Positions 31,629-49,684 of a stretch of 64,000 bases of DNA are shown here, piece by piece. Position 1 is the stretch's first letter. Each line of letters starts with the position of its first letter. The notes beneath the pieces were generated by a model. That model saw only the letters and a list, made by a program, of their open reading frames with translations. It ran no database searches and was not told the DNA's origin. Made by a program: the position numbers and the translations under genes. The stretch comes from Saccharothrix sp. (GTDB lineage: Bacteria > Actinomycetota > Actinomycetes > Mycobacteriales > Pseudonocardiaceae): assembly GCF_031180885.1 (NCBI RefSeq), contig NZ_JAPSLK010000016.1:62001-126000 (forward strand). The letters run 5' to 3'.

Positions 31629-32710
31629 ATGACAAAGGCGCTGATCATCGGTGGTGGGATCGCCGGACCGGTCACCGCGCCGACGTTGCGCAAGGCGGGC
31701 ATCGACTCGGTCGTCTTCGAGGACTACCCGACGGGCGCGGACGACATCGGCGCGTTCCTCACGATCATGCACAACGGCCTGGACGCCTTACGGGCGATCG
31801 ACGCCGAGCGCGTCGTGGTGGACCACTCGTTCGCCGCCGACGGGGTGGACGTCTACACCGGTGACGGGACTGCTCAGCGAGAACCGGTGGAGCGACGGCA
31901 TCACCGGCCCGCGCACGCTGCGCCGCGCCGACCTGTACCGGGCGCTGCACGACGAGTTGCGCCGGCAAGGGATCGCCGTCGAGCACGGCAAGCGGCTGGT
32001 CGGGCTGGCGGACGGCGTCCGGGCGGTGTTCGCGGACGGGACGACCGCCGAGGGGGACCTGCTGGTCGGCGCGGACGGGCTGCACTCCGCGACCCGGCGG
32101 CTCATCGACCCGGACGCGCCGGAACCCCGTTACACGGGCCTGAACATCTTCTACGGCTACGCCGAGGGGCTGGGGCCGACGACCGCGCCCGGCCGGTACC
32201 ACATGATCGCCGGGTCACGAGGCTTTTCGGGCACAGCACCGCGCCGGACGGCACGACGTGGTGGTTCGCCCGGACCCCGGGTCCGGAGCGGCACGGGGGC
32301 ACACCCGCCGAGCACCGCGAACACGCCGCCGCGTTCTTCGCCGACGACGTCGCGATCGCGCGCGAGATCATCGCGGCCGAGGGGGGGTCCACGCGAGCAA
32401 CCCCTACGACGTCCCGACCACGCCCGTGTGGCACACCGACCGGGTGGTGCTGGTCGGGGACGCGGCACACGCCGCGTCCCCGGCAGCGGGTCAGGGTGCG
32501 TCGATGGCGCTGGAGGACAGCGTCACCCTCGCGCGGTGCCTGCGCGACCTGGCGGCGCCGCGCCGGGCGTTCGAGGTGTACGAGCGGTTGCGCTGGGAAC
32601 GGGTGGAAGCGCTGGTGGAGATGAGCGCCGGGTTGGGCGCGAACCGGTCGGTTTCGGCGAATTCTTTCTACGCGCACCACATCGAGTGGAATAATCCGGT
32701 TCAGTTGTAG
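31629..32710 (+). pseudogene. FAD-dependent monooxygenase with three frameshifts
   Basis: Would encode an aromatic-ring or antibiotic-type flavin hydroxylase of about 360 residues. The N-terminal ALIIGGGIAGP FAD site and C-terminal GDAAHAASP motif are both there but in different frames. The reading frame changes at the GGG run 31866-31868 (one extra base), at TTTT 32224-32227 (one missing; restores FFGHSTAPDG) and at the seven G run 32381-32387 (one missing; restores HASNPYDV). Each change is a single-base homopolymer indel. Start ATG 31629 (GTG 31620 possible). Real decay and sequence error cannot be separated from one sequence, but most neighbouring genes are intact. Confidence 0.8.
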
Positions 32711-32802
32711 GGCATTCCGCCGAGCGGGCTGGTGGCCGCCTGGGCGGCGGTCGTGAAAAACGTCACCAGCAGCACGGCGATGAGCACTCGTCCGATTCGC
32801 AT
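32701..32802 (-). CDS. Small secreted peptide opposite LAL regulator
   Basis: 33 residues. ATG at 32802 with GGAG seven bases upstream. Residues 1-22 are a textbook Sec signal (MRIGR, hydrophobic VLIAVLLVTFF, then AQA cleavage site), leaving a mature peptide of only 11 residues, ATSPLGGMPYN. It is divergent from the LuxR/LAL regulator gene across 161 bp, and its last 10 bases overlap the end of the monooxygenase remnant. Not recognised as any known family. Size, export signal and neighbour fit a peptide signal, but that role is inference. The alternative is a leader-like secreted fragment without function. Confidence 0.6.
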   Translation of the reverse strand: MRIGRVLIAVLLVTFFTTAAQAATSPLGGMPYN

Positions 32803-32963
32803 GCGCACTCCAGGGAAGAGTCGTCGTCGAGCGGTTTCGGCGCCGGGATCACGGTGGCAGCGGCGGGTGAAACGCGGAGGTGATCGCGGTGAACAAAAGA
32901 AGAACTGTGCGCGTGCGCGGATGATTCGAAATAGCGAAAGACCTTGTTAACCTGCTGTTTGCC

Positions 32964-35801
32964 TTGTATTCTCTCCGTGTGCGCGCCGTCACCCTGCGCC
33001 TCGTCGGCCGCGAGCGCGAGCTGGACCGCCTGCGGGCCGGGGTCGACGCCCTGGCCCGGGGGCGGGGTGCCGCGCTGGTCGTCGAGGGCGAGCCGGGCAT
33101 CGGCAAGACGGCGCTGGTCAAGGCGGTCTGCGAGGACGCCGCCGCGCGCGGGTTCCGGGTGTGCAAGGGCGCGGGTGACGAACTGGGCCGCTCGCTTCCG
33201 TTGTTACCCCTGCTGGACGCCCTGTCCGCGGCCCGCTCCGACCCCGGCGCGACGGCCACCGCCGAACGCCTGCTGGCGCGAGTGGACGACCTGTGCGCCA
33301 TCGGCCCGGTCGTGCTGGTGATCGACGACCTCCAGTGGGCCGACGCCGCGACCGTCGCCGTGTGGCGGAGGCTGGCCCGGCTGGTGCCCCAACTCCCGTT
33401 GCTGCTCATCGGCGTCCTGCGACCGTTGCCGCGCCGGGACGACCTGTCCGCGCTGCGCCAAGGCGTCGACAGGTTGACCGTGGGCCGCCTCGCCCCACCG
33501 GCTGTTGCCGAGTTGGTGGGGGCGCTCGCGGGCGGGACGCCGGACGAGCGGCTGGTCGCGCTCGCGGACGACGCCGGCGGCAACCCGCTGTTCTTGGTGG
33601 AACTGGTCGAGGCCCTGGTCCGCGGCGGCGCGATCGAAGTCGACGCCACCGGCACCGCCCGCCTCGCCGACGCCCCGCCGCGCGCCGCTGACGCCCCGCC
33701 GCGCACTGCCGACACCCCGCCGCGCGCCGGCGATGCCCCGCCCCGCGCTGCCGATGCCCGGCCGCTCCCCGCGGATGCCTGGCCCGCGGTCGCCGGCGGT
33801 GGGTGGGCAGGTGGTGGGCTTGGCCCGGGCGGGTTGCCTGCATCGCTCTCCGCCGCCATCAACGACCGGATCGCCTACCTCAGCGCGGATGTCCGCCGCG
33901 TGCTCGTCGCCGCCGCCCTGCTCGGCGTGTCCTTCCCGGTCGCGGACTTGGCCGCCGTGCTCGGCACCCGCGTGGTCGACCTGCTGCCCGCCATCCAGGA
34001 CGCGACCGTCGCCGGCGTGCTGGAGGACGGTCGGCTGGGCTTGAGCTTCCGCCACCCCCTCGTCCGCGCCGCCCTCTACGAGGACGTGCCGGAGTCCGCC
34101 CGCGGCGCCTGGCACGGTGAAGCGGCCCGCGCGCTGGCCGAGAGCGGCGCGGGCGTCGACCGGGTGACCCGGCAGTTGCTGGCCGCCGACGACCGGGTCC
34201 CCGAGTGGGTGGCGCGATGGCTCGACGAGCACGGCGCCACGCTCGTCGCCCACGCCCCCGAGGCCGCGGTGGACCTGCTCGGCCGGGTCGTCGTCGCACC
34301 GCACGCGACCCTGCGCCGGGGTGTCCTGCTCGCGCACCTGGCCGAGGCCCGGTTCCGGCTCGGCGACCACCACGGCGCGGAAGCGGTCGCGCTGGCGGGC
34401 CTCGAACACGGCACCCACGTCGACCTGCACTGGACGTTGGCGCAGTGCCGCAGCATGACGGGCCGGTCCGCCGAGACGCTCGCCGAGATCGACCGCGCCC
34501 TCGCCGTGCCCGGCCTGTCCGCCGGCGACCGCGCCCGCCTGCTCGTGCCGGCCGCCCGCGCGCACTGGGACGTCGGCTCGCTCGACGACGCCGAACGCCT
34601 CGCCATCACCGCGATGGAGGCCGACGATCGCCGCGCCACCAGCTGGGCGCTGCACGTCCGCACGATCGTGGCGATGGCCCGGGGCCGCATGGCCGAAGCG
34701 CTGCCGCTGTTCGACCGGGCGCTGGCGGTCGCGATGGGCGACCCGGCGACCGCGGACCTGCGGCTGCTGCTGCAGATCAACCAGGCCGTCACGCTCGGCG
34801 AACTGGACCGGGCCGAGGAGGCGATCGCGTCCGCCCGCGTCGTCCGGCACGCCGCCGACCAGACCGGCAACACCGTGCGGCTCGCTCAAGCGCAGAGCGC
34901 GCTGGGCCAGCTCCTGCTGGACGCGGGCCAGTGGGACGAGGCCCTGGTCGACGTGGACCTGCTGCCCGACGACCTCAAGCACCCGATGGTGTCCCGCTGC
35001 GACCACGGCGTCGCGGCCCTGGTCCGCCTGCACCGCGGCGACACGGCGGGCGCCCGGCGGCACCTGGACGCGGCCGGTGAGGCGGTGCCCGGCCACGTCG
35101 TCGGCTCCCTCGCGCTCGCCACCAGCCTGGAACTGGAGCAGGCCGGACGGGTCCGCGAGGCGCTGGCCGTGCTGCTCGACGGCATGGACTCGGTCGAGGA
35201 CCTGCTGCCCGACGCCGTCCGCCTGGCGGTCCAACTGGGCGACGACCCGTCGGCGGCCGTGGCGCGCGCCGAGGAGTTGGCCCGGGAACTGGACGTCCCG
35301 CACCGGCGCGCGGTCGCCGCCTACTGCCGCGCCCTGGCCGACGGCGACCCGGTGAACCTGCTGCGCGCCGCCGACGAGGGCGCGGGACGGCCGTTGCTGC
35401 GGGCGAAGGCGTTGGGCGCGGCGGCGGTGGCGTTCGCCGAGTCCGGGGACCGCACGTCCGCACGGGCCGCGTTGAGCCACGCCGTGGACGTGCTGGAGCG
35501 GCTGGGCGCCGAGTGGGACCTCAACGTGCTGCTGGCGCGGATGCGCGAACTGGGCATCCGCCGCGGCCCGCACGCCAAGCACCGGCGGGCCGCGCACGGC
35601 TGGGACAGCCTGACCCCGATGGAGCTGAAGGTCACCGAGCTGGTGGTGGCGGGCCTGTCCAACCGGCAGATCGCCGAACGCCTGTTCCTGTCCAGCCGGA
35701 CCGTGGCCACCCACGTGTCACACGTGCTGGCGAAGCTCGGGGTCCGGTCGCGCACCGACATCGCCCGCGAGGCCGTGCGCCACCGCGTCGCGTCGGGGTG
35801 A
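32964..35801 (+). CDS. LuxR-family AAA regulator (LAL type)
   Basis: Large ATP-binding transcription activator, 945 residues from TTG 32964; GTG 32979 is an equally good start and neither has a clear ribosome site. Walker A GEPGIGKT at about 42-49, Walker B VLVIDDLQWAD near 113, then TPR-like helical repeats and a C-terminal LuxR helix-turn-helix (about 875-940; LSNRQIAERLFLSSRTVATH). LAL proteins often switch on secondary metabolism or sugar use. A heptad repeat (DAPPRAA) has expanded after the NTPase domain. A tiny secreted peptide gene is divergent; the last 84 bases overlap a convergent membrane-protein gene. Confidence 0.9.
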   Translation: MYSLRVRAVTLRLVGRERELDRLRAGVDALARGRGAALVVEGEPGIGKTALVKAVCEDAAARGFRVCKGAGDELGRSLPLLPLLDALSAARSDPGATATAERLLARVDDLCAIGPVVLVIDDLQWADAATVAVWRRLARLVPQLPLLLIGVLRPLPRRDDLSALRQGVDRLTVGRLAPPAVAELVGALAGGTPDERLVALADDAGGNPLFLVELVEALVRGGAIEVDATGTARLADAPPRAADAPPRTADTPPRAGDAPPRAADARPLPADAWPAVAGGGWAGGGLGPGGLPASLSAAINDRIAYLSADVRRVLVAAALLGVSFPVADLAAVLGTRVVDLLPAIQDATVAGVLEDGRLGLSFRHPLVRAALYEDVPESARGAWHGEAARALAESGAGVDRVTRQLLAADDRVPEWVARWLDEHGATLVAHAPEAAVDLLGRVVVAPHATLRRGVLLAHLAEARFRLGDHHGAEAVALAGLEHGTHVDLHWTLAQCRSMTGRSAETLAEIDRALAVPGLSAGDRARLLVPAARAHWDVGSLDDAERLAITAMEADDRRATSWALHVRTIVAMARGRMAEALPLFDRALAVAMGDPATADLRLLLQINQAVTLGELDRAEEAIASARVVRHAADQTGNTVRLAQAQSALGQLLLDAGQWDEALVDVDLLPDDLKHPMVSRCDHGVAALVRLHRGDTAGARRHLDAAGEAVPGHVVGSLALATSLELEQAGRVREALAVLLDGMDSVEDLLPDAVRLAVQLGDDPSAAVARAEELARELDVPHRRAVAAYCRALADGDPVNLLRAADEGAGRPLLRAKALGAAAVAFAESGDRTSARAALSHAVDVLERLGAEWDLNVLLARMRELGIRRGPHAKHRRAAHGWDSLTPMELKVTELVVAGLSNRQIAERLFLSSRTVATHVSHVLAKLGVRSRTDIAREAVRHRVASG
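33669..33790 (+). repeat. 21-bp coding repeat in LAL regulator
   Basis: About six copies of a seven-residue unit (DAPPRAA, DAPPRTA, DTPPRAG, DAPPRAA, DARPLPA, DAWPAVA) form a Pro/Ala-rich insert between the NTPase region and the following helical domain; copies drift toward the end. Unit length keeps the frame. Confidence 0.85.
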
Positions 35802-36260
35802 CCGGGCCCGGTAGCGCAGCGGCAGCACGAACCACCAGAACCCGAACCAGGCCACCAGCCCGGACGTGATCCACACCGCCGGCCACAGCCCCAGCACCAC
35901 GTCCAGGATCAGCAGCAGGGCCGTGGCCAGGGCCAGTTTGAGCAGCACCAGACCGGCGAGCAGCAGCCGGCTCGACGCGCGGACCAGCTCGTGCTTGAGC
36001 CGGCGGCGGAACACCAGCCGGTGGAACGGCGCGGGCGCGATGAGCAGGGCCGTCGAGGTCGCGCCGAGGACCAGGCTCAGCACGTACACCTGGAGCTGGA
36101 ACAGGTCCAGGTGCACGAAGCGCGGGGTGAAGGCAAGGGTCAGCAGGAACGCCAGCAGCAGTTGGACACCGGTCTGGGCGACCCGCATCTCCTGGAGGAT
36201 CTCCGCGTAGTTGCGGTCCATGCGCTCGGCGGGGGTCTCGTTGCGTTCGGCGTTCGTCAT
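35718..36260 (-). CDS. DUF6328 family membrane protein
   Basis: 180 residues; the ATG at 36260 follows GAACGAAACG-type sequence without a strong site. A polar N-terminus (RMDRNYAEILQEMRVAQTGVQ) is followed by four hydrophobic helices, typical of DUF6328 proteins, whose role is unknown. The N-terminal half of the frame's open extension to 36911 is antisense to the AraC gene and is rejected. The 3' 84 bases are antisense to the DNA-binding end of the LAL gene, an unusually long overlap. Confidence 0.78.
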   Translation of the reverse strand: MTNAERNETPAERMDRNYAEILQEMRVAQTGVQLLLAFLLTLAFTPRFVHLDLFQLQVYVLSLVLGATSTALLIAPAPFHRLVFRRRLKHELVRASSRLLLAGLVLLKLALATALLLILDVVLGLWPAVWITSGLVAWFGFWWFVLPLRYRARSPRRDAVAHGLAGDVGARPDPELRQHV

Positions 36261-44386: not shown

Positions 44387-46060
44387 ATGTTCCTGAAGGC
44401 GAAGCGTTCACGGGCGGTGGCGGCGGGGGTGGCCGCGCTGGCCATGCTGGCCACGGCGTGCGGCGGGTCGGGCACGTCGGCCGGCGGGGACGGCACGCTG
44501 GTCGTCTACACCGGGCAGTCCGGCGACTGGCAGCTCAACTTCAACCCGTTCTCCCCGACCGCCCTGGAAGGCCCGGGGACGATCTTCGAGCCGCTGTTCT
44601 TCTTCAACAACATCCGCGACGTCGAGCCGCGCCCGCGCCTGGGCAAGACCTTCAAGTGGAACGCCGACGGCACCCAGCTCGACGTCGAGCTGCGCGACGA
44701 CGCCAAGTGGACCGACGGCCAGAAGTTCACCGCCGACGACGTCGTCTTCACCCTCGACATGATCACCAAGAACGCCGCGATGAACGGCACCGGCTACAAG
44801 GGCACCGCGACCGCCGTCGACCCGACGCACGTGTCGATCAAGTTCACCGAGCCGTCCTTCATGGAGGGCCCGCAGATCCTCGGCCGGATCTGGATGGTGC
44901 CCAAGCACAAGTGGTCGAGCCTGGCCACCCCCGCCACGGACGTGGTGCGCGAACCGGTCGGCACCGGGCCGTTCCAGCTCGACGAGTTCAAGCCGCAGGC
45001 GTTCACGCTCAAGGCCAACGCCTCCTACTACGCGGGCGAGCCGGCCCTGAAGAAGGTCCGCTACCTGGCGCTGTCGGGCAACCAGTCCGGTGAGGCCGCG
45101 CTCAAGGCCGGCCAGATCGACTGGCAGACCGGGCCGGTGCCGGACATCAAGAACGTCGAGAAGAACTACCCCGGCTACAAGGCCATCACCATCCCGATGA
45201 ACCAGACGGCCCTGTTCACCTGCTCGAACGCCGCTCTCGGCTGCGTGGGCCCGCAGACCGACGTGGCCGTCCGCAAGGCCATCTACTACGGCATCAACCG
45301 CACCCAGATCAACCAGCTCGCCTTCGAGAACACCTCCAGCGAGATCTCGCCCGGCGCCGCCCTGCTGGAGCGCGACCGCGACCAGGTGTCCAGCAAGCTC
45401 AAGGAGCGCACCGCGCCGATGCAGCCCGACGAGGCCAAGGCCACGGCGCTGCTGGAAGGCGCGGGCTACACCAAGGGCGCGGACGGCATCTACCAGAAGG
45501 ACGGCAAGCCGCTCGCGCTGACGCTCAAGGTCGTCGCCGGCTGGACCGACTACATCACCGCCGTCGACACGATGAGCCAGCAGCTGCAGAAGATCGGCAT
45601 CAAGATCACGCCGCAGCAGGTGTCCTGGAACGAGTGGTCCGACGCGCGCGGCCGAGGCCAGTACGAACTGCTGATCGACGCCCTGCACCAGGGTCCCGCG
45701 CCCGACCCGTTCTACAACGCCTCCTACTTCTTCAGCACCGCCACCACGGCCAGGGTCGGCGAGATCGCCAACCCCAACTTCGCCCGCGTCAGCGACCCGG
45801 CCATCGACACCGCGCTGGCGGCGCTCAAGGGCATCGACCCGAAGGACGACGCCAAGCGGCAGCCGCACTTCGACACCATCCAGACCCGCATCGAGGAGCT
45901 GATCCCCTACGTCCCCGTCCTCACCGGCGGCACCACCAGCGAGTACAACGCCAAGAAGTTCACCGGCTGGCCCACCAAGGAGGACCTGTACTCGTTCCCG
46001 GCCGTCTGGGCGCGCCCGGAGCACTCCGAGATCTTCCTGAAGCTCAAGCCGGCGAGCTGA
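44387..46060 (+). CDS. ABC transporter substrate-binding lipoprotein (family 5)
   Basis: Extracytoplasmic solute receptor of the oligopeptide/oligosaccharide class (DppA/OppA fold, SBP family 5), 557 residues. Signal peptide with lipobox LATAC|GG at about 20-26. The fold is complete: NFNPFSPTALEGPG at about residue 48, WTDGQKFTADDVVFTLD near 106, and a C-terminal lobe. ATG at 44387 with GAGAGGAA upstream. Although family 5 proteins often bind peptides, several actinobacterial members bind cello-, manno- or other oligosaccharides; the GH36/GH2 neighbours favour galactomannan fragments. Confidence 0.9.
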   Translation: MFLKAKRSRAVAAGVAALAMLATACGGSGTSAGGDGTLVVYTGQSGDWQLNFNPFSPTALEGPGTIFEPLFFFNNIRDVEPRPRLGKTFKWNADGTQLDVELRDDAKWTDGQKFTADDVVFTLDMITKNAAMNGTGYKGTATAVDPTHVSIKFTEPSFMEGPQILGRIWMVPKHKWSSLATPATDVVREPVGTGPFQLDEFKPQAFTLKANASYYAGEPALKKVRYLALSGNQSGEAALKAGQIDWQTGPVPDIKNVEKNYPGYKAITIPMNQTALFTCSNAALGCVGPQTDVAVRKAIYYGINRTQINQLAFENTSSEISPGAALLERDRDQVSSKLKERTAPMQPDEAKATALLEGAGYTKGADGIYQKDGKPLALTLKVVAGWTDYITAVDTMSQQLQKIGIKITPQQVSWNEWSDARGRGQYELLIDALHQGPAPDPFYNASYFFSTATTARVGEIANPNFARVSDPAIDTALAALKGIDPKDDAKRQPHFDTIQTRIEELIPYVPVLTGGTTSEYNAKKFTGWPTKEDLYSFPAVWARPEHSEIFLKLKPAS

Positions 46061-46062
46061 CG

Positions 46063-47052
46063 ATGCGGTACTACGCCCGCAAGCTCGCGTTCTACCTGGT
46101 CGCCTTCTGGGCCGCGCTGACGCTGAACTTCTTCATCCCGAGGCTCATGCCGGGCAACCCGGTGGACATCCTCATGGCCAAGCTCGCCCAGCGCGGCGGC
46201 ACCGTGGACCCGGCGGCCCGCCGGGCGTACGAGCTGCTGCTCGGCTCCGGGACGGACGAGTCGCTGCTCTCGCAGTACTTCTCCTACCTGGGCAACATGT
46301 TCCGCGGCGACCTCGGCGTGTCGGTCAGCTCGTTCCCGACACCGGTGTCGGACATCATCGCGGAAGCGCTGCCGTGGACGCTGGTGCTGGTCGGGATCGC
46401 GACGTTCCTGTCGTTCGCCCTCGGCGTCGTCCTGGGCACGCTGGTCGGCTGGCGGCGCGGCACCTGGCTGGACAGCCTGGTGCCCGCCACCACCGTCCTG
46501 GCGGCGGTGCCGTACTTCTGGCTGGCGCTGATCCTGGTGGCGCTGCTGGCGTCCGGCCTGGGGTGGTTCCCGCTGCTGGGCGGCTACGACGTGGTCCTGT
46601 CGCCGGGCTGGGACCTGGAGTTCATCGGGTCGGCCGTCTACCACGGGACGCTGCCCGCGCTGACGATCGTGCTGTCGTCGGTCGGCGGCTGGCTGTTGGG
46701 GATGCGCAACATGATGGTGTCCACCACGTCCGAGGACTACGTGCTCACCGCGCAGGCCAAGGGGTTGCGCGATTCCCGCATCATGATCCGGTACGCGGCG
46801 CGCAACGCCGTGCTGCCGTCCGTGGCGGGGTTCGCGATCTCGCTGGGTTTCGTGGTGGCCGGGTCGATCATCACCGAGCAGGTGTTCTCCTACCCCGGTA
46901 TCGGCTCGAAGCTGCTGCAGGCGGTGCAGAACAACGACTACGCCCTGATGCAGGGCATCTTCCTGGTGATCACGGTCGCCGTGCTCGGCGCGAACCTCGT
47001 GGTCGACCTGCTGTACGCCCTCATCGACCCGCGCACCCGCGTCAGCGGCTGA
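46063..47052 (+). CDS. ABC transporter permease (DppB-like)
   Basis: Inner-membrane permease of 329 residues and six helices. ATG 46063 lies two bases after the binding-protein stop, so expression is coupled. N-terminal signature FFIPRLMPGNPVD and the ATPase-contact EAA-type loop DYVLTAQAKGLRDSRIM near residue 225 identify the DppB/OppB group. It pairs with the permease half of the following fusion protein. Confidence 0.94.
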   Translation: MRYYARKLAFYLVAFWAALTLNFFIPRLMPGNPVDILMAKLAQRGGTVDPAARRAYELLLGSGTDESLLSQYFSYLGNMFRGDLGVSVSSFPTPVSDIIAEALPWTLVLVGIATFLSFALGVVLGTLVGWRRGTWLDSLVPATTVLAAVPYFWLALILVALLASGLGWFPLLGGYDVVLSPGWDLEFIGSAVYHGTLPALTIVLSSVGGWLLGMRNMMVSTTSEDYVLTAQAKGLRDSRIMIRYAARNAVLPSVAGFAISLGFVVAGSIITEQVFSYPGIGSKLLQAVQNNDYALMQGIFLVITVAVLGANLVVDLLYALIDPRTRVSG

Positions 47053-47066
47053 GCCAGGAGCGTGCC

Positions 47067-48835
47067 GTGACCAACCCCAGTGCTGTTCCCGCCGCCGCCC
47101 CGCGCGGGTGGCGCGCGATGCTGCCGCGCCGGTCGCCCAAGCTGCTCGTCGGCGTCGGCCTGATCGCCGTGATCGCCCTGTTCGGCGTGGTCGGGCCGCT
47201 GTTCGTGGGCGACCCGGCGACCATCCGCGACGTCGGCCTCACCCCGCCCGGCGGCGACTTCCCGCTGGGCACCACGTTGACCGGCCAGGACATCCTGGCC
47301 CAACTCGCCCACGCCACCCGGGGCTCGCTGTACATCGGCCTGCTGGTCGGCGTGATGGCGACGTTCCTGTCCGCGTTGTTCGGCATCGTCGGCAGCTACG
47401 CCGGCGGGTACGTGGACGAGGCGTTCTCCTTGTTCTCCAACGTGATGCTGGTGATCCCCGGCCTGCCGCTGGTGATCGTCATCTCCGCGTTCGTGCCCGC
47501 CGACCAGCGCGGGTCGTGGACCATCGCGGTGGTGCTGGCCATCACCGGCTGGGCCGCGTCGGCGCGGGTGCTGCGGGCGCAGACGTTGTCGTTGCGCAAT
47601 CGCGACTACGTGGCGGCGGCGCGAGTGTCGGGGGAGCCCGCGTGGCGGGTGATCGGCGTGGAGATCCTGCCGAACCTGTTGCCGCTGCTGGCTTCCCAAT
47701 TCGTGTTCTCGGTGGTGTACGCGATCCTGAGCGAGGCCGGGCTGTCGTTCCTCGGGCTGGGCGCGTCGAACTCGTCCACGCTGGGCACGATGCTGTACTA
47801 CGCGCAGAACGGGTTCGCGCTGCAACGCGACGCCTGGTGGTGGTTCGTGCCGCCGGGTCTGATCATCGCGTTGTTCGGGTGCGGCCTGGCGCTGGTGAAC
47901 TTCAGCATCGACGAGATCATCAACCCGAAGCTCCGCGACGTCCCCAAGCGCGGCAAGCAACAAAACCGAGCCCCACAACCAGCCGAACGCCCCGACGACG
48001 ACGTGGTCCTGACCGTCGACGGCCTGTCCGTGGTGTACCAGGTCGGCACTCCCGTGCACGCGGTGAAGGACGTGTCGATCACCCTCCGACGAGGCGAGAT
48101 CCTCGGCCTGGCGGGCGAATCGGGCTGCGGCAAGACAACCCTGGCCTACGCCGTGAACCGCCTCCACCGCCCACCCGCCGAGGTCACCACCGGCAAGGTC
48201 ACCTTCCACGACCGCGACGGCACCGACACGGACATCCTCGCCCTGAAACCGGCGGAACTGCGTGAATTCCGCTGGTCAAAGCTGTCGATGGTGTTCCAGG
48301 GCGCGATGAACGCCCTCAACCCGGTCATCACCGTGCAGGCGCAGCTGGAAGACGTCCTCACCACCCACCGCCCGGAGATGACGAAGGCACAGCGACGGGT
48401 GAGGTGCGAGGAGGTGCTGCGCTTGGTCGGCGTGGACGTCCGACGCCTGACGTCGTTCCCGCACGAACTGTCCGGCGGTATGCGCCAGCGCGTGATGATC
48501 GCGATGGCCCTGTTGCTGGACCCGCAGGTGATGATCATGGACGAGCCGACCACCGCGCTGGACGTGGTGGTGCAGCGGGGCATCCTGCGCGAGATCCTGC
48601 GGCTGCGCGACGAGATCGGCTTCGCCGTCCTGTTCATCACCCACGACCTGCCGCTGCTGCTGGAACTCGCCGACCGCATCGCCGTGATGAAGGACGGCGA
48701 GGTCGTCGAGTACGCCACGGCCGAGCAGGTCTACGCCGCGCCCGCGCACCCGTACACGCGCAAGCTGCTCGACTCGTTCCCCAGCCTGACCGGCGAGCGC
48801 GGCGCGTTCGTCCGCGAGACCTCCGGGAGTCCGCT

Positions 48836-48839
<4 letters not shown>
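47067..48839 (+). CDS. ABC transporter permease-ATPase fusion (DppC-DppD-like)
   Basis: 590 residues joining two subunits that are usually separate. GTG 47067 has AGGAG upstream. Residues 1-295 form a DppC-type permease with five to six helices and the contact loop RDYVAAARVSGEPAW. After a polar linker (about 298-315) comes an ATPase: Walker A GESGCGKTT near 350, signature LSGGMRQRV near 472, Walker B VMIMDEPTTALD near 490. Such fusions are known in actinobacterial oligopeptide-type importers. Overlaps the next ATPase gene by GTGA. Confidence 0.93.

Positions 48840-49673
<834 letters not shown>

Positions 49674-49684
<11 letters not shown>

Follow-up and report, generated by a model that had tools for sequence, protein, structure and literature searches.

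A Sec-type micropeptide gene divergent from a STAND/LAL regulator in Saccharothrix and related actinomycetes: a probable peptide pheromone and its receptor

The window, i.e. the whole stretch of 64,000 nucleotides of a Saccharothrix sp. contig that was analysed, carries a 33-codon micro-ORF and, divergently from it, the gene of a large LAL regulator (Table 1). The N-terminal part of the micro-ORF product has the traits that are common to the leaders of its relatives: an arginine near the start, a hydrophobic core and an alanine-rich end. The ribosome-binding site ends 5 nt upstream of the ATG, and within the intergenic box the hexamer GTGAAC is invariant in the alignment of 20 genomes. The FAD-dependent oxygenase gene on the peptide side is split over two reading frames, possibly by a frameshift or a sequencing error; among the 20 loci of the genus compared with 1.5 kb flanks, homologues at that place are otherwise found only in G023 and G007. 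In genomes such as G004, G010, G016, G017, G018 and G005 the peptide stop is followed by a short G+C stretch that resembles a hairpin (CCGGACAACGGAGTCCGG) and is possibly a terminator; the window copy is without it.

Table 1. Features at and around the peptide-LAL locus, with positions in the window
Feature	Position	Strand	Basis or remarks
FAD-dependent oxygenase, split over two frames	31651-32710	plus	
Peptide precursor micro-ORF MRIGRVLIAVLLVTFFTTAAQAATSPLGGMPYN*, 33 aa	32701..32802	minus	ATG start, TGA stop; in 20/25 genus genomes, coding-type substitutions
C-terminal core PLGGMPYN, candidate signal	32704..32727	minus	P[FL]GG[ML]PYN in 20/20 copies
Sec-type leader MRIGRVLIAVLLVTFFTTAAQA, residues 1-22	32737..32802	minus	composition; cleavage site read by eye
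Ribosome-binding site CTGGAG of peptide gene	32808..32813	minus	intact in 19/20 aligned intergenic regions, changed in G024
Conserved intergenic box GGTGAACAA (TTGTTCACC on the peptide strand), candidate operator	32888..32896		20-genome alignment
LAL promoter-like element TTGTTA-N17-TATTCT	32944..32972	plus	TTGTT and TATTCT kept in 20-genome alignment
LAL regulator, 940 aa	32979..35801	plus	AAA/STAND ATPase, winged helix, TPR superhelix ~409-857, LuxR HTH ~875-939
DUF6328 domain, convergent gene after LAL	35820..36242	minus	PF19853, 2.3e-51
Oligopeptide ABC transporter set	44387-49684	plus	~12 kb downstream

An earlier note on this DNA, made from the sequence alone, had described a divergent LuxR/LAL ATPase regulator of 945 residues. 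The divergent regulator is confirmed, but judging from the sequence it most likely begins at the GTG at 32979, which gives 940 residues, rather than at the TTG at 32964. Across the genus the promoter-like element has the consensus TTGTT[AGC]-N17-TATTCT, and similar elements were seen by eye before the LAL genes of many other Pseudonocardiaceae. As the GTG begins 7 nt after the TATTCT element, the LAL mRNA is probably leaderless. Taken together, the GTGAAC box and the leaderless LAL promoter suggest that the peptide and the LAL are under joint control.

The LAL has the features of its class, i.e. about 900-1000 residues, an N-terminal Walker ATPase and a C-terminal LuxR HTH, and a Pfam search returned AAA_16 (3e-21), GerE (1.7e-17) and weak TPR matches. 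An AlphaFold2 model calculated with 29 sequences (mean pLDDT 87, pTM 0.73) contains an all-helical stretch at about 409-857 and an HTH at the end. Foldseek placed the TPR-STAND protein 6mfv first and also returned the MalT complex 8bob of the maltose system, while most other matches are TPR proteins of many kinds; no RRNPP receptor is named among the best 50 of the 209 matches (E <= 0.001). In a sequence search of solved structures the LAL matched mainly LuxR HTH domains. The protein is predicted to be a TPR-sensor STAND in which the ATPase and winged helix are followed by a TPR superhelix. Residues ~233-283 of the window LAL form a run of DAPPRA-like repeats with pLDDT below 50, which is longer than in the other Saccharothrix LALs, except for a different insert in G024.

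The 33-residue peptide used as a query gave matches with E < 1e-8 in 19 of 25 Saccharothrix genomes. The 20th carrier (G024, locus L021) has a different leader and was recognised by its PLGGMPYN* end, the full ending being APLGGMPYN*. All 20 copies end in the eight residues P[FL]GG[ML]PYN, while the residues before this end vary; in G007 and G024 they are missing altogether, so that a V-A or V-V-A end directly precedes the core. In G001 and G007, whose copies are of other lengths, the conserved leader and the conserved end still share one frame. A 27-nt DNA pattern written for P[FL]GG[ML]PYN* occurs in 19 of 390 genomes of the family, all of them Saccharothrix (one known carrier, G008, escapes it through codon choice), and the reversed pattern, used as a control, in 0 of 390.

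The substitutions are of the coding type. Among the 17 equally long copies pN/pS amounts to 0.52, and to 0.54 for codons 2-33, as compared with a mean of 1.05 after column shuffling (3 of 200 shuffles were as low). In these 17 genomes a 70-codon segment of the LAL gene has a pN/pS of 0.28; overall, the ATPase is thus under stronger constraint than the peptide, whose constrained part is the tail. On the conservation and the codon pattern together, a chance ORF or non-coding DNA was rejected. The gene with its ribosome site proposed in the earlier note is therefore real, and the non-coding substitution pattern that would have spoken against it was looked for and its opposite found. The mature product ATSPLGGMPYN that had been read from the cleavage site holds in part: its last eight residues are conserved in all copies, but the 11-mer is not a conserved unit, since residues 23-25 (ATS) are variable or absent. 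The conserved unit is thus the last eight residues or fewer, and the 11-mer is probably not the active form; what is seen in the relatives agrees better with a core of about 4-8 residues. Searches of Pfam and NCBIfam (window peptide and four relatives) and PHROGs (window peptide and three relatives) gave no match above the cut-offs. Below them were DUF7096 (E 0.006) and weaker matches in Pfam, PHROG 30911 (E 0.055) and, on the Actinocrispum precursor, NCBIfam penta_MxKDx (E 0.00026, 20.9 of 41 bits).

At the nucleotide level, CGA is fixed at peptide residue 5 (17/17) and nearly fixed at residue 2 (15/17; both within 32788-32802, minus strand), and GGA is nearly fixed at residue 29 (16/17 copies), hinting at some nucleotide-level constraint on the peptide gene.

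The pairing of the two genes is strict within the sampled genus: 20 of 25 genomes have both the peptide and the divergent LAL orthologue, and the other five have neither. The orthologues at the 20 loci are 72-93% identical to the window LAL, and the best LAL matches in the five remaining genomes are partial, at 45-53%. The genus loci were reached through the peptide; a search with the LAL sensor domain alone gives exactly the same 20 genomes. A lack of conservation beside LAL orthologues, which had been named as grounds for dropping the pair, was thus looked for and the reverse was seen. Outside this 25-genome set, S. coeruleofusca (L179) has a LAL without a recognisable peptide.

Other neighbours are less constant. 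Beyond the peptide gene, 16 of the 20 genomes have a small membrane gene (A) and a second gene (B, PepSY_TM in the window copy), both of which the other four lack there. In 13 genomes gene A is read in the same direction as the peptide gene, and its start lies about 120-170 nt beyond the peptide stop; in the window genome (G000), G007 and G023 it lies farther off, with the opposite-strand oxygenase gene in between. A downstream operon was accordingly rejected as a universal link for the peptide, the membrane gene and PepSY_TM being absent in 4/20 and distant in 3/20, though a tie between the peptide's role and the membrane-protein gene could conceivably exist as a local feature of those 13 genomes. 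On the other side, the DUF6328 gene adjoins the LAL in the window and in 9 of 19 other Saccharothrix stretches. By ORF similarity it was also found at loci of Lentzea, Solihabitans, Amycolatopsis, Actinocrispum, Kutzneria, Kibdelosporangium and Actinokineospora (Pfam was run on two), and it was not seen in the compared loci of Micromonosporaceae or Streptosporangiaceae. It is the most frequent other neighbour in Pseudonocardiaceae without being constant.

This layout bears on the idea that the micro-ORF is a translated leader, i.e. an attenuator-type upstream ORF, or conserved non-coding DNA. The same-strand gene at a short distance in 13/20 genomes would suit it, as would the conserved rare codons and the low synonymous diversity (pS 0.22 in the peptide as against 0.28 in part of the LAL). 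In the other seven genomes, however, that gene is absent or lies distant behind an opposed gene, and the peptide is kept all the same. The flanking genes on the peptide side, including the one that follows it, change between genera while the peptide-LAL pair stays, and the repeats found in other genera are kept at the protein level, mostly with different codons. We consider this explanation hardly credible.

In the family as a whole, a search with the LAL sensor region found homologues in 76 of 386 genomes, in 8 of 46 genera. Ten further named genera have a LAL homologue (Amycolatopsis, Actinokineospora, Actinophytocola, Kibdelosporangium, Actinocrispum, Kutzneria, Lentzea, Solihabitans, Asanoa and Micromonospora), as do Streptosporangiaceae MAGs. 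We analysed 60 of the 63 LAL places outside the genus and 63 named loci reached by another route, the two sets overlapping; L191, L224 and L129 were set aside for want of a recognisable LAL start (L129 duplicates L206), and L188 as its start was misplaced. After removal of duplicates, a divergent Sec-type micro-ORF, with the leader judged by composition, faces the LAL at 76 of 99 distinct loci. The micro-ORF detector, whose limits differ slightly between runs, is passed by 75 of these, and L192, a clear precursor that fails one filter, was counted by eye. The other 23 comprise a paralogous clade of Amycolatopsis, with 20 loci and, provisionally in view of its misplaced start, L188, as well as L179 and L226, at both of which the LAL has no divergent peptide. 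One record, L205, is titled Rhodococcus rhodnii NRRL B-16535; it coincides with G217 and has a LAL that falls among those of Kibdelosporangium, and the title looks wrong.

Among other-genus loci chosen by LAL similarity alone, 39 of the 59 assessed were positive in the detector, as against 88 of 4000 random windows (2.2%), which were drawn from the same stretches and may include a few true peptides. When the best 30 of the 44 AAA_16 matches in this genome were treated in the same way, with gene starts estimated from the position of the domain and the AAA_16 proteins not all being LALs, the window LAL was positive and the 29 others gave none. Plasmids contained no LAL match at E 1e-100. None of the 395 other genomes in a wider sample of the phylum gave a match at E <= 1e-40; in those listed the five best candidates were scored, and with this limited scoring absence outside the families found is not established.

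At most loci of the other genera the micro-ORF has 38-69 codons, and the tail behind the leader is in some cases no longer than about 8 residues. The tails diverge by lineage while the LAL stays conserved. Amycolatopsis precursors end in [DAGSN]EMGYN or SMGYN (2-3 copies), those of Kibdelosporangium and Actinocrispum in xMGY[DN] (3-4 copies), and those of Actinokineospora and Actinophytocola in xMTH[ND] or MTYN (2-3 copies). Kutzneria mostly has G[QMT]PY[DNE] (K. viridogrisea GGVWMT), Lentzea GTPYN and Solihabitans GVPYD. In Micromonospora the ends are VYHDM (NBRC 107566, 2 copies) and IAHHP (CPCC 205371), in a Micromonosporaceae MAG VFHDL (2 copies), in Asanoa LWHDM or VWLD[VI], and in G327 FPPNW. 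The Streptosporangiaceae and related MAGs show THFHG (3 copies), VHYGG, VFYHA, MFYHG, TYYHL and IIHMG. The C-terminal 5-mer is repeated with at most one mismatch in 35 of 72 distinct precursors; when the tails were shuffled 1000 times, the mean was 0.62 and the highest count 5. According to a motif list made by eye, 39 of 75 precursors have one core, 23 have two, 12 have three and one has four. The copies differ in synonymous codons in 27 of the 36 repeat-bearing precursors (identical-codon type 9/36), which argues that selection acts on the peptide.

The earlier suggestion that the arrangement resembles a peptide-signalling pair gains support here, as LALs chosen by sensor similarity mostly face a Sec-type micro-ORF, often with tandem cores. 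The same data can be set against three other explanations. The peptide might be an output, i.e. the LAL would sense something else and use the shared promoter region to induce a small secreted or membrane peptide with a surface, antimicrobial or hyphal function; the divergent layout suits a regulator and its target, and LALs without a peptide exist. Tails of down to about 8 residues, cores that change by lineage beside a conserved LAL, and tandem cores speak against this, features that are common among signals and uncommon in structural or toxic products. We therefore regard the output explanation as unlikely. A precursor of a RiPP, i.e. a modified natural product, with a Sec leader could also hold tandem cores, which occur in RiPP precursors too. 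The LAL is, however, the only gene common to the compared families, and none of 17 neighbouring ORFs from selected loci was recognised by Pfam as a RiPP modification enzyme, so that this origin appears very improbable. The third explanation is an intracellular or membrane inhibitor that holds the LAL without any cell-to-cell signalling. It would be in keeping with the tight peptide-LAL pairing and with MalT, which is held by inhibitory proteins according to PMC6468293. Sec-like leaders with alanine-rich ends and tails directly after them would be needless for an intracellular inhibitor, and we think this distinctly improbable.

The LALs without a peptide are mostly of one kind. On a tree of 99 LALs built by a quick method, with L192 coded by hand as present and L188 as absent, the presence or absence of the peptide needs three changes, the largest being a loss in one Amycolatopsis clade. 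This large peptide-less group is a single clade nested among peptide-bearing clades, and its paralogues (e.g. L131, L161 and L212) have no divergent peptide at 20 tested loci. A [DE]MGY[ND] end followed by TAA or TGA is absent genome-wide in 15 genomes that have only a LAL of the peptide-less clade, and present in 3/3 control genomes. The nested position and the missing end make it most likely, as far as sequences can tell, that the signal was lost there and the receptor retained; the remaining LAL is possibly an eavesdropper or has switched its ligand. Only three LAL columns separate this clade from the peptide-bearing LALs; for two control clades that have the peptide the numbers are 13 and 4, and dependence on the peptide thus leaves no clear mark on the receptor. 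Nothing follows from these columns about receptor residues lost in the peptide-less clade, and that candidate was abandoned.

We conclude that the pair is probably an actinomycete peptide pheromone with a STAND/LAL receptor, at a rough probability of seven in ten. The gene, its conservation, the pairing, the shape of the leader, the tandem cores, the domain architecture and the predicted fold are the grounds on which we infer a signalling role for the peptide. Under this pheromone reading, the micro-ORF product would be a propeptide exported by Sec, from which signal peptidase, together with other proteases in the multi-copy precursors, would release a short linear C-terminal peptide, here approximately GMPYN to PLGGMPYN. 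The receptor is taken as cytosolic, hence import of the peptide must be assumed, and an oligopeptide ABC importer would be the most likely route. Inside the cell the peptide would bind the TPR superhelix of the divergently encoded LAL and open the ADP-locked STAND ATPase by an ADP-to-ATP switch; the LAL would then oligomerise, and its LuxR domain would activate target promoters, probably including the shared intergenic region. Sensors of STAND proteins hold the inducer site in several cases, and the ADP-to-ATP switch is known for STANDs and MalT, as described in PMC6468293.

The genome has 16 SBP_bac_5 matches, one of them within the window. In the ABC set downstream of the LAL, permease and ATPase domains are fused in a single ORF of 821 residues, the second gene of the set. 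SBP homologues occur in 12 of 18 downstream stretches of relatives, where a sigma-factor gene is at least as conserved; plain synteny therefore suffices to explain the SBP, no dedicated importer is implied, and these genes were rejected in that role.

With more reserve, we lean towards a still broader view, namely that the pairs form a whole undescribed class of actinomycete pheromones. These would be C-terminal cores of 4-8 residues in 1-4 copies, read by one ancient STAND/LAL subfamily in at least three families and in lineage dialects (PYN, MGYN/MGYD, MTHN, THFHG, YHDM), with one paralogous receptor clade that lost its signal, retained the receptor and might hear the peptides of others. Micro-ORFs of this class are easily overlooked because they are so short. 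Within the open-access literature searched, at the level of titles and the beginnings of abstracts and with preprints and most subscription papers outside this scope, such a peptide-LAL pair is not described. If the reading is true, a gene-encoded short linear peptide would be a ready synthetic inducer for one LAL subfamily and a testable ligand for STAND transcription factors.

It remains to place the pair among known systems. LAL regulators control many antibiotic clusters, and to our knowledge their inducers are mostly unknown. The LALs of those clusters in actinomycetes share the size, the N-terminal AAA ATPase and the C-terminal LuxR HTH with the present subfamily; the difference is that the latter is tied to a divergent Sec-type micropeptide, as the 29 other AAA_16 loci of the genome are not. 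MalT and the TPR-sensor STANDs (6mfv, 8bob) have the same NOD, winged helix, arm and TPR sensor, and in MalT also a LuxR-type HTH, the comparison on our side being with a predicted fold. MalT responds to a sugar, and we know of no peptide gene as its partner. Precursors of the yeast alpha-factor type likewise combine a signal peptide with tandem copies of one short pheromone, but the receptor there is a GPCR; the likeness is one of design alone, and no sequence relation is claimed. Signals of actinomycetes are typically small molecules according to PMC10075063, and butyrolactones and cyclic or modified peptides are named as signals in PMC4748050.

The closest functional parallel is the RRNPP/RRNPPA group of Bacillota (Rap-Phr, NprR, PlcR-PapR, PrgX, AimR), in which a small propeptide gene also lies beside the gene of an intracellular TPR regulator and the signal is short and C-terminal (PMC11343458, PMC10075063); RRNPP propeptides can also hold several or duplicated putative pheromones (PMC11343458). 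Here too, a small propeptide gene with a Sec-type leader, by composition, adjoins the receptor gene. Uptake of the peptide and its binding in the TPR groove, further traits of RRNPPA systems, would apply here under the pheromone reading. The HTH(XRE)-TPR or Rap type of receptor is absent, and AAA_16 with a C-terminal GerE is found instead: the receptor is a STAND ATPase of 900-1000 residues with a C-terminal LuxR domain, the two genes are divergent, and the hosts are Actinomycetota. By this analogy the pair is best read as working like RRNPP systems without being a member of them, the receptor being unrelated; if so, it would represent a second, convergent design of exported peptide and TPR receptor, outside Bacillota.
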